This document shows, piece by piece, positions 5,019 through 7,511 of a stretch of 64,000 nucleotides of DNA. Both the position numbers and the translations under genes were made by a program. The stretch lies in assembly GCF_035751725.1 (NCBI RefSeq), contig NZ_CP142104.1:3534001-3598000 (forward strand), given 5' to 3'. The notes beneath the pieces are model-generated. The model saw nothing but the letters and a program-made list of their open reading frames with translations, did no database searches and was not told where the DNA came from. The first letter of the stretch is position 1. Each line of letters begins with the position of its first letter. The stretch comes from Pseudomonas frederiksbergensis (GTDB lineage Bacteria; Pseudomonadota; Gammaproteobacteria; Pseudomonadales; Pseudomonadaceae).

Positions 5019-5768
5019 TCACAGCGCCATGGCCTGACCCGCCCACCCGCTGTCGCCGCGTCGAGCGATGACCAATGCCTCCCCCACGCCTTGAGCCGCA
5101 GCCAGCAGCGAACCATCCGGACCCCAGATTGCGCTGCGACCGGCCGACTCCCACCCTCCGGTAGCACCACCATGATTGGCCATCAACACGGCCATGGCAT
5201 GTTGCCGGGCATAGCTTTGCAGCAGCGTGGTGTCCGGCTCGTAGCCACCCTTGCTGATCAAGACGCCTGCCGCGTACACCGTGGTGCCCTGCCCCGCGGC
5301 CGAGGCGGCATGACAGGCGTGGGTGAAGTCGGCGCAGACCGCCAAGGCGACCTGATCCAAATCCATTGGCAACATTGGGCCGCCATGGCCGGGCGCAAAA
5401 ACGACCTCTTCTCCCGTATGCAAGTGTTGCTTGCTATAGACCCCGAGGGAGCCATCGGCACCGAGGATAAGTGCGCCGATCAGTACTGGCTCGCTTGTCG
5501 ACAGGCGGATCGGCATGCCGACGACGGTCGTCAAGCACAGCTCTTGCGCCAAGTCGCGCAGCGGCTGCAAGAGGCTGTCATTGGGGAGGATCGCGAGTTT
5601 TGCCGCCAGGCCCAGCTCATAGCCAGTAAGCGACAACTCAGGGAAAACCAACAGCTTCACGTCTTGCTCGGCGGCGGCCTGCATGAAACGCAGATGCGCC
5701 ATGACATTGGCGTGAACATCTCCGGCGACGGAAATGGCTTGTGCGGCGGCAAAGACTGAAGCGTTCAT
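5019..5768 (-). CDS. carbon-nitrogen hydrolase (nitrilase superfamily)
   Basis: A 249-residue amidase of the nitrilase fold, probably cytoplasmic. The Glu-Lys-Cys triad can be read: E44 in VFPELSLTGY, K113 in VYSKQHLHTGEE and C145 in LAVCADF. The enzyme would hydrolyse a small amide or omega-amide; the substrate is not evident. It is the upstream member of a two-gene unit with the GNAT acetyltransferase and is divergent from the DAHP synthase leader. The 153 bases between them carry both promoters. Confidence 0.85.
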   Translation of the reverse strand: MNASVFAAAQAISVAGDVHANVMAHLRFMQAAAEQDVKLLVFPELSLTGYELGLAAKLAILPNDSLLQPLRDLAQELCLTTVVGMPIRLSTSEPVLIGALILGADGSLGVYSKQHLHTGEEVVFAPGHGGPMLPMDLDQVALAVCADFTHACHAASAAGQGTTVYAAGVLISKGGYEPDTTLLQSYARQHAMAVLMANHGGATGGWESAGRSAIWGPDGSLLAAAQGVGEALVIARRGDSGWAGQAMAL

Positions 5769-5867
5769 GGATCTTCCAAAAGAGTCAGCACAACTCAGAA
5801 GTTTGTCATAAAGCCCATCGGACTCAAGCGAGGCGACTGTTTTTAAATGCCCGATAGCATTTTCTTA

Positions 5868-5897
5868 TTGAACGGCTGCCTCGCGCTCTTGTAAGCT
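5868..5897 (+). promoter_or_regulatory. candidate sigma-70 promoter of the DAHP synthase leader transcript
   Basis: TTGAAC (5868-5873) and TAAGCT (5892-5897) are separated by 18 bases, close to the -35/-10 consensus. Transcription would begin near 5904, about 18 bases before the first leader ATG. Read by eye; no start-site data. Confidence 0.45.
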
Positions 5898-5921
5898 CGG
5901 ACCATTCATCGGAGACAGATC

Positions 5922-6050
5922 ATGTTCAACGCCCGCTCACCGCTTCAACCTGTCAGCGCCTCGCGCTCGGTTGCGGCTGCCCGGGCGAACAGCGTACAGA
6001 CTCCGGTCAGCTTTTATTTTGGGTATTGGTTTAGCCACTGGCGCGCCTGA
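5922..6050 (+). CDS. aromatic-rich leader peptide 1 (attenuator peptide)
   Basis: Small ORF of 42 codons with a good ribosome site (GGAGA at 5911-5915, 6 bases before ATG 5922). The peptide ends SFYFGYWFSHWRA, so eight of its last twelve or so codons are Phe, Tyr, Trp or His. This is what a ribosome-stalling leader for aromatic amino-acid supply looks like. The stop at 6048-6050 sits 48 bases before an intrinsic terminator. The codons for F-G-Y (within TTGGGTAT, 6019-6026) can pair with ATACCCAA just after the stop (6050-6057), the classical 1:2 pairing that a stalled ribosome would block. Confidence 0.8.
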   Translation: MFNARSPLQPVSASRSVAAARANSVQTPVSFYFGYWFSHWRA

Positions 6051-6098
6051 TACCCAACCGGCGCCCCATTTTCAACGGGTCGCCTTCCAGAGTTTTCC

Positions 6099-6138
6099 AA
6101 ACCCCCGGTCGGCCTCCCGACCGGGGGTTTTGTTTTTT
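6099..6138 (+). terminator. intrinsic terminator/attenuator upstream of DAHP synthase
   Basis: Eleven-base GC-rich stem CCCCCGGTCGG / CCGACCGGGGG with a 4-base loop (6102-6127), extended by A-T pairs and followed by TTTTGTTTTTT. It is one of the strongest terminators in the window and lies between the aromatic leader peptide and the aro gene, with no gene ending before it other than the leader, so it should act as an attenuator. The segment ACCGG (6057-6061) could pair with CCGGT in its left arm (6105-6109), a short possible antiterminator. Confidence 0.85.
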
Positions 6139-6183
6139 CAGGCCCCAGACATTTGCAGCATCAAACAACTTGAGGATTGAGCC

Positions 6184-6336
6184 ATGAACTACGCCACTTA
6201 TTACCGTTACGACAGTTTTTCCGCCTGGCGATTTACCAGCCACCGCTCGGGACAGCTTGCCGCCTCCGATCGGTCACCTACCGGTGGCATGCCTACGTTG
6301 CGGGCCATTACGGCCAATTGTCGAACACCCAAATAG
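6184..6336 (+). CDS. second aromatic-rich small ORF between attenuator and DAHP synthase
   Basis: A 50-codon ORF with a GAGG ribosome site 8 bases before ATG 6184. Its N-terminus MNYATYYRYDSFSAWRF has four Tyr, two Phe and one Trp in 17 residues, so aromatic codons are again clustered, here at the beginning rather than the end. It lies after the terminator and stops 48 bases before the aro start; a small hairpin GCGGG/CCCGC (6346-6361) follows its stop. It may set translation of the downstream gene by coupling or stalling, or be a second regulatory peptide. Confidence 0.6.
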   Translation: MNYATYYRYDSFSAWRFTSHRSGQLAASDRSPTGGMPTLRAITANCRTPK

Positions 6337-6384
6337 GGCCGGCGCGCGGGAATGAACCCGCAGCCCCGCCCAGGAAGCCAGATC

Positions 6385-7455
6385 ATGAATTCGTCCGTCT
6401 CCGCTTTGCCGCTGTCCACACTCAACCCTGCCAATGAAGCCCTGACCCTGCGCTTGCCGAGTGCATTACAGCTCAAGCAACAATTGCCGCTTGATAATGC
6501 ATTGAGCCAACAGGTCAACGCCCATCGCCAAGCCATCCGCGCGATCCTTGACGGCGAGGACTCCCGCCTGCTGGTCATCGTCGGCCCTTGCTCGATCCAC
6601 GATCCAGAATCCGCTCTCGAATACGCCGCCAACCTCGCTCGCCTTGCCCGGGAAGTGAGCGACAGCATGCTGTTGGTGATGCGCGCCTACGTGGAAAAGC
6701 CTCGCACCACTGTGGGCTGGAAGGGTCTGGCCTACGATCCCCATCTTGATGGCAGCGATGACATGGCCACCGGCCTCGAGCTGTCGCGGGAGTTGATGCG
6801 TGAGATGCTGCGACTCGGCCTACCCGTGGCCACCGAACTGTTGCAGCCCATGGCAGCCAGCTACTTCGATGACCTGCTGAGTTGGGTCGCCATTGGTGCT
6901 CGGACCACCGAATCACAGATTCACCGGGAAATGGCCAGCGGACTGGGCATGCCAGTGGGCTTCAAGAACGGCACCGACGGTGGGGTCGGCATCGCCTGCG
7001 ACGCCATGCGCTCAGCGGCGCATCCCCATCGCCATTTCGGCATCGACAGCCAGGGGCACCCGGCCGTCATACAGACCCAGGGCAACCCCGATACCCACCT
7101 GGTATTGCGCGGTGGCCATCGCGGACCGAATTATGATCGCCAAAGCGTGGCGCAAATCCACGGCGACCTCACGCGCCTGAAAATCCCGGCCCGCATCCTG
7201 GTCGATTGCAGCCACGCCAACAGCGGCAAGGACCCGTTGCGCCAGCCCCAGGTATTCGAAGACGTGCTGGAACAGCGAGTGCAAGGCAACCGTGCGCTCG
7301 TCGGCATGATGCTCGAAAGTCACCTGTTCGAGGGCTGCCAGCCGTTGGGCGCGACGATGCGCTACGGTGTATCGGTCACCGATGGATGCCTTGGCTGGGC
7401 GTCGACCGAGCATCTGCTGCGCCAGGCTCACCGCAGGTTGCGACTGGGGGCCTGA
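6385..7455 (+). CDS. 3-deoxy-7-phosphoheptulonate (DAHP) synthase, class I (AroF/G/H type)
   Basis: Condenses phosphoenolpyruvate and erythrose-4-phosphate, the first step of the shikimate pathway. The 356 residues contain the class-I motifs VGPCSIHDP, AYVEKPRTTVGWKGL, GARTTESQ, GFKNGTDGG, LRGG and DCSHANSGKDP, which supply phosphate, metal and PEP ligands. I choose ATG 6385 because AGGAAG lies 7 bases upstream; the frame also has an ATG at 6352 with a poor ribosome site. Which aromatic amino acid inhibits this isozyme cannot be read directly. The leader peptide with Phe, Tyr and Trp codons upstream suggests control by aromatic supply. Confidence 0.93.
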   Translation: MNSSVSALPLSTLNPANEALTLRLPSALQLKQQLPLDNALSQQVNAHRQAIRAILDGEDSRLLVIVGPCSIHDPESALEYAANLARLAREVSDSMLLVMRAYVEKPRTTVGWKGLAYDPHLDGSDDMATGLELSRELMREMLRLGLPVATELLQPMAASYFDDLLSWVAIGARTTESQIHREMASGLGMPVGFKNGTDGGVGIACDAMRSAAHPHRHFGIDSQGHPAVIQTQGNPDTHLVLRGGHRGPNYDRQSVAQIHGDLTRLKIPARILVDCSHANSGKDPLRQPQVFEDVLEQRVQGNRALVGMMLESHLFEGCQPLGATMRYGVSVTDGCLGWASTEHLLRQAHRRLRLGA

Positions 7456-7474
7456 ACGGCTCGACGTTTCTCTG

Positions 7475-7511
7475 CCTTGTGGCGCGGGAGCAAGCTTTCC
7501 TCGCCACAAGG
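7475..7511. repeat. REP-type palindrome
   Basis: CCTTGTGGCG (7475-7484) and CGCCACAAGG (7502-7511) flank a CGGGAGCAAGCTTTCCT core. It lies between the convergent DAHP synthase and repeat-protein genes. Several related palindromes occur elsewhere in the window (10191, 19195, 21644, 27842, 42644). Confidence 0.75.

Follow-up and report, generated by a model that had tools for sequence, protein, structure and literature searches.

The window analyzed here is a stretch of 64,000 nucleotides from Pseudomonas frederiksbergensis. Its forward strand carries a type I DAHP synthase gene at positions 6385 to 7455 (TIGR00034, 438.8 bits), which is preceded by the Shine-Dalgarno sequence AGGA at 6372-6375. 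DAHP synthase catalyzes the first, committed step of aromatic amino acid synthesis in the shikimate pathway, and the best solved-structure match of this protein is the Tyr-sensitive enzyme 6agm. A program-made list of ORFs puts the start of the gene at 6352, not 6385. The divergent neighbor on the reverse strand (5019-5768) resembles a nitrilase-family hydrolase, with matches far under the curated cut-offs.

Upstream of the gene, also on the forward strand, lies an ORF of 42 codons (leader 1) that begins with an ATG at 5922, runs to 6050 and ends in SFYFGYWFSHWRA. This ORF and its ribosome-binding site, GGAG at 5911-5914, had been recognized in an initial annotation of the region, and both are confirmed. 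The GGAG is conserved in an alignment of 105 upstream regions, in which a TTGaa and a GTA.g.T block also stand out. A putative sigma-70 promoter occupies 5868-5897, with TTGAAC at 5868-5873, an 18-nt spacer and TAAGCT at 5892-5897; a mechanical promoter scan did not list a sigma-70 candidate there (0 found). Transcription is expected to start near 5904, given this putative promoter.

The element in the window is already catalogued. Positions 6008 to 6127 of the forward strand match Rfam RF00627 (Pseudomonas sRNA P15) with 123 bits and E 9.1e-25, where the gathering cut-off is 70; the match spans model positions 1-119 of 119. The match begins inside leader 1 and stops at a terminator, so that it omits the start of leader 1 and everything downstream, including a second leader ORF described below. 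At the Rfam gathering level, the whole window contains P15 and one tRNA only, and no T-box or other known riboswitch is matched in it. Rfam gives P15 the type Gene. In the portions of the literature available, P15 is listed among the sRNAs detected by Livny et al. (PMC2375449), and a second paper treats it as an sRNA and suggests a possible correspondence to a riboswitch (PMC2527527). An open-licence search, which returned partial texts, yielded no account of P15 as an attenuator and no tandem leader ahead of DAHP synthase. The initial annotation had overlooked both the P15 entry and the second aromatic ORF.

Searches for P15 gave matches in 113 of 148 family genomes (110 above the cut-off) and in 109 of 119 genomes of the window's genus. 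Among 293 genomes of the order, 27 carry the motif; 15 of these lie outside the family, and 12 of the 15 matches fall below the cut-off. Loci were compared in four sets, consisting of the 110 family loci above the cut-off, 3 weaker family loci, 15 loci from outside the family and 49 loci of the genus, the last made up of the 29 best new matches and 20 picked from lower in the genus list.

All 110 above-cut-off family loci encode GYW[FYW] near a stop codon, and every one has Y, W and F within the final 15 residues of leader 1. These final positions are 43% aromatic, versus 0.7% for the remainder. In the three weaker, below-cut-off family matches, YAYWF replaces GYW[FYW]. A script found leader 1 in 48 of the 49 genus loci (the exception is L198), and it is present in all nine loci of another family, f43. 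The aromatic tail is kept in the window's own family and in two further families; the conservation in relatives by which the initial annotation had proposed to check its reading extends also to the stems, as follows.

The leader 1 region can adopt two mutually exclusive sets of helices. An intrinsic terminator identified by a terminator scan (6099-6138) consists of a stem at 6099-6130 and a T-run. Its GC hairpin, noted by the initial annotation, does begin 48 bases past the leader 1 stop, and the scan gives it 14 pairs, including 10 G-C pairs. The fold predicted for 5918-6145 has a z score of -4.83, and 0 of 200 shuffles were as stable. In that fold, TTGGGTAT (6019-6026) pairs with its complement ATACCCAA (6050-6057). 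The initial annotation had pointed out this pairing, which is real. It forms a protector hairpin (6021-6055), in which GGGTAT at 6021-6026, the Gly-Tyr codons, pairs with ATACCC at 6050-6055, and not the antiterminator, which instead joins 6077-6088 to 6107-6118, the upper half of the terminator (helix 3:4, 6077-6118). Two helices connect these elements. Helix 1:2 (6040-6066) pairs the last leader 1 codons at 6040-6049 with 6059-6066 and is predicted with a ribosome positioned over the GYW codons. Helix 2:3, an anti-antiterminator (6060-6084), pairs GGCGCCC at 6060-6066 with GGGTCGCC at 6077-6084. Another candidate antiterminator, derived from the window alone, would match CCAACCGG (6054-6061) to CCGGTCGG in the terminator at 7 of 8 positions; most relatives carry other bases there, and the pairing was dropped in favor of 3:4 because it is not kept in them. 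In locus L068, leader 1 has an extra Trp codon (GYWWFSHRRA), an in-frame 3-base insertion beside the protector arm.

Conservation of these helices was assessed in an alignment of 88 of the 90 distinct leader 1 sequences from the 110 family loci. Four loci without GGGTA[TC] (L102, L103, L104 and L110) had been set aside before the 90 were counted, and two more (L050 and L074), whose stretch started too far upstream, were excluded from the 88. By eye, L103 and L104 retain the protector helix through a matched two-sided change and L102 retains it with one G-T pair; L110 does not have it. Over the 88 sequences, the proportion of pair cells kept is 95.8-98.1% for the GGGTAT:ATACCC helix, 98.8% for the terminator, 94.2% for helix 2:3, 90.6% for helix 1:2 and 96.1% for antiterminator 3:4. 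The terminating fold as a whole (protector, anti-antiterminator and terminator) keeps 97.1% and the alternative fold (1:2 with 3:4) 93.5%. Neither figure was reached in 500 shuffles, and slid controls gave at most 60.6% for the terminating and 53.4% for the alternative fold. Covariation scores and the count of two-sided changed cells exceed all 500 shuffles; the number of pairs with two-sided change, and of further pair types, is not above shuffles. Compensatory changes in the terminator include C-G to A-U in 32 of the 88 sequences and C-G to U-A in 7, and one pair of helix 1:2 changes from G-C to U-G in 18.

Base pairing averaged over the 110 loci gives the same two states. With all bases free, the GGGTAT:ATACCC helix, segment pairing 2:3 and the terminator are predicted; when the GYW codons are masked and the terminator lacks its 3' arm, 1:2 and 3:4 appear. 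The window's sequence folds like this average in both states. When 6034-6118 of the window is folded alone, its antiterminator is predicted with 8 of 10 pairs and two T-T mismatches. In both states for which the whole RNA, 3' arm included, was folded, the terminator is favored at equilibrium; therefore the switch must be kinetic, and folding does not demonstrate it. The antiterminator is also predicted with a ribosome held at the leader 1 stop and no 3' arm, and the model therefore requires that the ribosome be released before the terminator is synthesized.

From the conserved parts and the exclusive folds we infer the following course of events. A transcript starting near 5904 would present leader 1 first, with Tyr, Trp and Phe codons in a row among its last. 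If charged tRNAs for all three amino acids were plentiful, the ribosome would complete leader 1 and leave, the Gly-Tyr codons would pair with the sequence past the stop, segments 2 and 3 would pair, and the terminator at 6099-6138 would form, which would yield the short RNA known as P15. If any of the three were scarce, the ribosome would stall on the aromatic codons, segments 1 and 2 would pair, and the freed segment 3 would capture the upper half of the terminator as it is being made, so that RNA polymerase would read through. Ribosome-mediated attenuation, the layout proposed in the initial annotation, is supported by the aromatic tail in 110 of 110 loci and by the stems in the 88 aligned sequences. 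Leader 1 is very probably such an attenuator, able to read all three aromatic amino acids.

The P15 element accompanies a particular DAHP synthase. Enzymes linked to P15 in the family loci are 55.7-100% identical to that of the window. Among the 35 family genomes without P15, 20 were tested, and 19 have a DAHP synthase match with 49-54% identity to the window's enzyme. The remaining genome, which is 70% complete, gave no match, and one P15-negative genome (G037) has an additional DAHP synthase fragment with 58% identity. A tree was built from 60 proteins, namely 40 P15-linked enzymes and 20 others (the 19 from P15-negative genomes and a second copy from the window's genome), and a single branch with support 100/100 separates the 40 from the 20. 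Upstream of the second type I DAHP synthase of the window's genome (locus L111) are four small ORFs, none of them aromatic-rich. Given the tree and the upstream region of this second copy, P15 goes with one isozyme. The Rfam type and the listing of P15 among detected sRNAs would fit a free-standing, trans-acting sRNA in which the ORF is incidental. However, the ORF, its aromatic codons, the antiterminator and the position before one DAHP synthase isozyme are all conserved, and the terminated RNA of an attenuator would appear as a short RNA anyway. A trans-acting role is accordingly very improbable.

The main new finding is a second aromatic leader ORF (leader 2) between the terminator and the DAHP synthase gene. 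It occupies 6184-6336 of the forward strand, has 50 codons, begins with MNYATYYRYDSFSAWRF and ends in CRTPK, and is preceded by the Shine-Dalgarno sequence GAGG at 6172-6175. The initial annotation had taken the feature to end at 6138, an extent that has to be revised. An ORF with WR[FY] lies between terminator and gene in 106 of the 110 family loci; by eye, the other four (L027, L058, L100 and L101) have a short aromatic variant instead. All 106 have a Shine-Dalgarno sequence and in-frame ATG at most 75 nt upstream of the leader 2 Trp codon; in the two alternative frames, 1 locus and 0 loci do. Up to W-R-F, aromatic residues account for 37.3% of leader 2. The corresponding fractions are 1.4% and 4.1% for the alternative frames and 1.7% for the leader 2 tail, and each of the 106 contains all of Y, W and F. 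Because these loci were chosen for having the ORF, it is the Shine-Dalgarno sequence and the composition that carry the weight. Leader 2 is also found in 49 of 49 genus loci. Leader 2 is real, conserved and aromatic.

Three loci of family f43 (L163, L167 and L170) have leader 1 and the terminator without leader 2, so that the terminator is followed directly by the gene; by eye, the rest of the nine f43 loci have leader 2 or a variant. These three speak against the explanation with both leaders, and they are natural single-leader forms that can be compared with the tandem form. In locus L097, the gap between the T-run and the start of leader 2 is just 15 nt, and a separate promoter between the leaders therefore would not fit there. 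The sequence CGAACA, at 6322-6327 just before the leader 2 stop, recurs in 84 of the 110 family loci; it shares the CGA codon with W-R-F, and no pairing partner was found for it.

Leader 2 occurs in a long and a short form. The long form, to which the window belongs, contains a core of 63 nt that starts at the Trp codon (6226-6288, forward strand; TGGCGATTT...GGTGGC). All 74 distinct long-form cores measure 63 nt from the TGG of W-R-F to the GGTGGC, where 50-72 nt were allowed, and the long form is present in 45 of the 49 genus loci, a set chosen by P15 alone. The short form keeps the ORF and W-R-F without the core. A core pattern scanned over one genome per species (84,980 species) matched at least 119 stretches. 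DAHP synthase lies within 600 nt downstream in all 112 that could be judged, the other 7 running off the sequence. Among the 119 matches listed, 114 have leader 1 upstream, 4 are at a sequence edge and one (L254) has the variant YWPGDWF. Of 80 matches listed with titles, one is a Paucimonas metagenome-assembled genome and the rest belong to Pseudomonas or Halomonadaceae genera. The Paucimonas sequence (L271) carries Pseudomonas-type leaders and may reflect a misassigned bin or a transfer.

With a looser core pattern that permits up to two mismatches, 77 of 121 Halomonadaceae genomes were matched, versus 25 with a reversed control. The core motif is present in 29 of 30 fetched Halomonadaceae loci, and leader 1, a terminator-like hairpin and the core occur together in 48 of 49. 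The one exception, L215, is a two-mismatch hit with no core; L177, a Halomonadaceae P15 hit without the core, lies outside this set, and the 49 loci include some genomes twice (L172/L207, L175/L230 and L203/L252). The family assignment follows from 350-nt stretches of loci L203 and L216, which match Bisbaumannia and Franzmannia records without a difference; 350-nt stretches of L004, L182, L185 and L193, the last three from the genus set, likewise equal sequences of named Pseudomonas, which makes the genus Pseudomonas. Thus, the 63-nt core in the window's form is common to Pseudomonas and its salt-loving relatives, the Halomonadaceae. By eye, CCTCCG of the core can pair with the DAHP synthase Shine-Dalgarno sequence in Halomonadaceae, as CTCC can with any GGAG.

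In 38 distinct genus cores, the third bases of GCC, GCC, TCC, GGT, GGC and TCG codons within two proposed helices are fixed within the amino acid, whereas CGC/CGT, GGA/GGC and TCN elsewhere in the same cores vary. Among unpartnered codons, CGA and TTT are also fixed, and CGG and CAG nearly always so. The fixed synonymous positions suggest a constraint on the RNA beyond the peptide. The helices could form an H-type pseudoknot, with S1 of 7 pairs (6244-6250 with 6266-6272, with one mismatch in the window), a loop of 8, S2 of 6 pairs (GCCGCC at 6259-6264 with GGTGGC at 6283-6288) and loops of 1 and 10. S1 would thus span 6244-6272 and S2 6259-6288 of the forward strand. Among 130 distinct cores, many of which came from search patterns fixing some or most helix bases, pair cells are kept at 89.7% for S1 and 99.7% for S2, and slid controls gave 20.5-63.2%. 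Covariation is not beyond shuffles in these cores (the score was reached in 380 of 500). The pseudoknot is offered as a proposal because the helices hardly vary and compensatory changes do not exceed chance.

The ribosome admits mRNA about 15 nt from its P site. The proposed pseudoknot begins 18 nt after the first base of TGG and, by reckoning, would be encountered by a ribosome whose P site holds Arg and whose A site holds Phe. No slippery heptamer was evident by eye at TGGCGATTT, and a programmed frameshift there was discarded. From a few loci inspected by eye, the frame of leader 2 relative to DAHP synthase seemed to depend on the clade.

The constant core length, the fixed synonymous-site nucleotides and the possible pseudoknot could also indicate a ligand-binding, riboswitch-like RNA in which the reading frame has little importance. 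However, the frame, Shine-Dalgarno sequence, start codon and aromatic codons are conserved as well, and the short form retains the ORF and W-R-F where it lacks the core. No known RNA family was matched above its cut-off either: a search of 6120-6440 against Rfam gave a single hit, to an sRNA on the opposite strand, with 14.1 bits against a cut-off of 40. A ligand-binding core is a decidedly unlikely explanation.

Between the leader 2 stop and the DAHP synthase Shine-Dalgarno sequence lies a hairpin (6337-6371, forward strand) with an inner stem of GCGGG at 6346-6350 and CCCGC at 6357-6361. Six or more pairs form when this stretch is folded in 109 of 110 loci (mean z -3.0), and 3 of 4 consensus pairs have two-sided changes among 62 aligned of 95 distinct stretches. 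In the family loci, counting from the first base of the leader 2 stop, the DAHP synthase ATG follows at 38-52 nt. In 47 Halomonadaceae loci, it is located from 14 nt before to 29 nt after that base. The overlap of leader 2 with the gene start in some Halomonadaceae is what would be expected if leader 2 served translation coupling only, as a ribosome feeder or spacer that senses nothing. Coupling has no need of aromatic codons, however, which make up 37% of leader 2 up to W-R-F and include all three residues in 106 of 106 loci; moreover, the family loci interpose both a distance and the hairpin. Coupling without sensing therefore seems just as doubtful as a ligand-binding core.

The sequence around GACTGGCG is able, in many short-form loci, to base-pair with the spacer that separates the Shine-Dalgarno sequence of DAHP synthase from its ATG. 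Over 106 loci, predicted access to the ribosome-binding site of the gene rises from a mean of 0.41 to 0.50 when the Trp codon is covered, and covering the ninth codon after Trp or a later one leaves it almost unchanged. Access increases by at least 0.1 in 48 of the 106 loci and decreases as much in 3. By form, the change is -0.02 to +0.17 in six short-form loci of the window's genus and -0.09 to +0.06 in 11 long-form loci of that genus, none of which rises by 0.1 or more. Each locus's own pairing between Trp region and binding site beats permuted combinations with p 0.0015 (72 pairs, relatedness ignored); taken by form and likewise ignoring relatedness, p is 0.017 for the short and 0.27 for the long form. 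A universal rule by which the Trp region pairs with the DAHP synthase binding site was rejected, since the long form does not follow it.

The folding predictions for the window's own form, which give no effect on the binding site, would be compatible with a second transcription checkpoint, dependent on Rho or on pausing. A precedent is the mgtCBR leader of Salmonella, in which, according to the portions available, two ORFs both act on transcription (PMC3641672). A scan of 5500-7500 revealed no second intrinsic terminator, its three entries overlapping at 6099-6130, and leader 2 overlaps or lies near the DAHP synthase start in Halomonadaceae. Transcription as the target of leader 2 is unlikely, though less so than coupling alone. 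Translation is the likelier target, because of the Trp-region pairing and the Halomonadaceae overlap with the gene start. We consider it somewhat probable that leader 2 is a second checkpoint; that it acts on translation falls a little short of probable. A translational checkpoint is plausible, and least so in the form found in the window.

The action of leader 2 that we infer would thus follow read-through at the terminator. The longer RNA would present leader 2, rich in Tyr and then carrying Trp-Arg-Phe, most likely as a second checkpoint on DAHP synthase translation. The pseudoknot, or a nearby downstream pairing, would hold or meet the ribosome on W-R-F and thereby leave the DAHP synthase binding site open or closed. 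This explanation, with both leaders, is probable as a whole. A more specific version is tentative, and we would sooner doubt than assert it: the same three amino acids would be checked twice, by leader 1 for transcription and by leader 2 for translation, through an H-type pseudoknot with the decoding center on Trp-Arg-Phe, with the long form of Pseudomonas and Halomonadaceae ancestral and the short form, which would pair the Trp codon region with the DAHP synthase binding site, derived.

The enterobacterial leaders trpL and pheL consist of a leader ORF with codons for the end product, a protector, an antiterminator and an intrinsic terminator. Leader 1 resembles them in all of these parts. It differs in its longer pairing relay (protector, 1:2, 2:3, 3:4 and terminator), in its codons for all three aromatic amino acids and in the second leader ORF behind the terminator.

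Leaders have also been described before DAHP synthase genes elsewhere. In Corynebacterium glutamicum, aroR encodes a Phe-Tyr-Phe leader peptide ahead of the DAHP synthase operon, and the available parts of two papers report ribosome-mediated attenuation that responds to Phe limitation, with no effect of Tyr (PMC11802643, PMC4046766). This system shares with P15 a leader ORF before DAHP synthase, and such attenuation is very probable for P15 too, but it belongs to unrelated bacteria, and those parts mention no Trp codon or second leader. The uORFC-13-1 motif before aroF in Acholeplasma is, in the portion available, a predicted uORF attenuator (PMC8632094). It is comparable to P15 in kind and position, but it features a U-run encoding Phe, occurs in distant organisms and is described there with no mention of a tandem leader. 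Because leaders of DAHP synthase are known or predicted in these cases, leader control of this step is not new in itself.

Tandem leaders have precedents as well, described here from the accessible portions of the sources. The Salmonella mgtCBR leader RNA contains two short ORFs, mgtM and mgtP, that sense ATP and proline (PMC3641672), and one of them responds to charged tRNA. It is the tandem transcription attenuator found in print, and it uses two different signals, whereas both leaders of the P15 locus carry codons for the same three amino acids; both mgtCBR ORFs act on transcription, whereas leader 2 is proposed mainly for translation. The ermB gene has two leader peptides, ermBL and ermBL2, and is controlled by translational attenuation (PMC8274638). 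Here too, two leader peptides precede one gene, but the inducer is a ribosome-stalling drug and not amino acid supply, and the available portion mentions no terminator between the leaders.

These results allow a function to be assigned to the catalogued "sRNA" P15. The evidence favors reclassifying RF00627 as a cis-regulatory leader, whose model could be extended 5' to the start of leader 1 and 3' across leader 2. The conserved core provides a test object for the joint action of an RNA fold and specific codons on the ribosome, and efforts to engineer aromatic production in Pseudomonas could target the region directly. The two leaders suggest two successive checks of amino acid supply ahead of one gene. 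Should leader 2 be a second checkpoint for the same signal, a single RNA would act as a two-stage, AND-like sensor of amino acids. The findings indicate that in Pseudomonas and Halomonadaceae a switch able to read all three aromatic amino acids sets the committed shikimate step.
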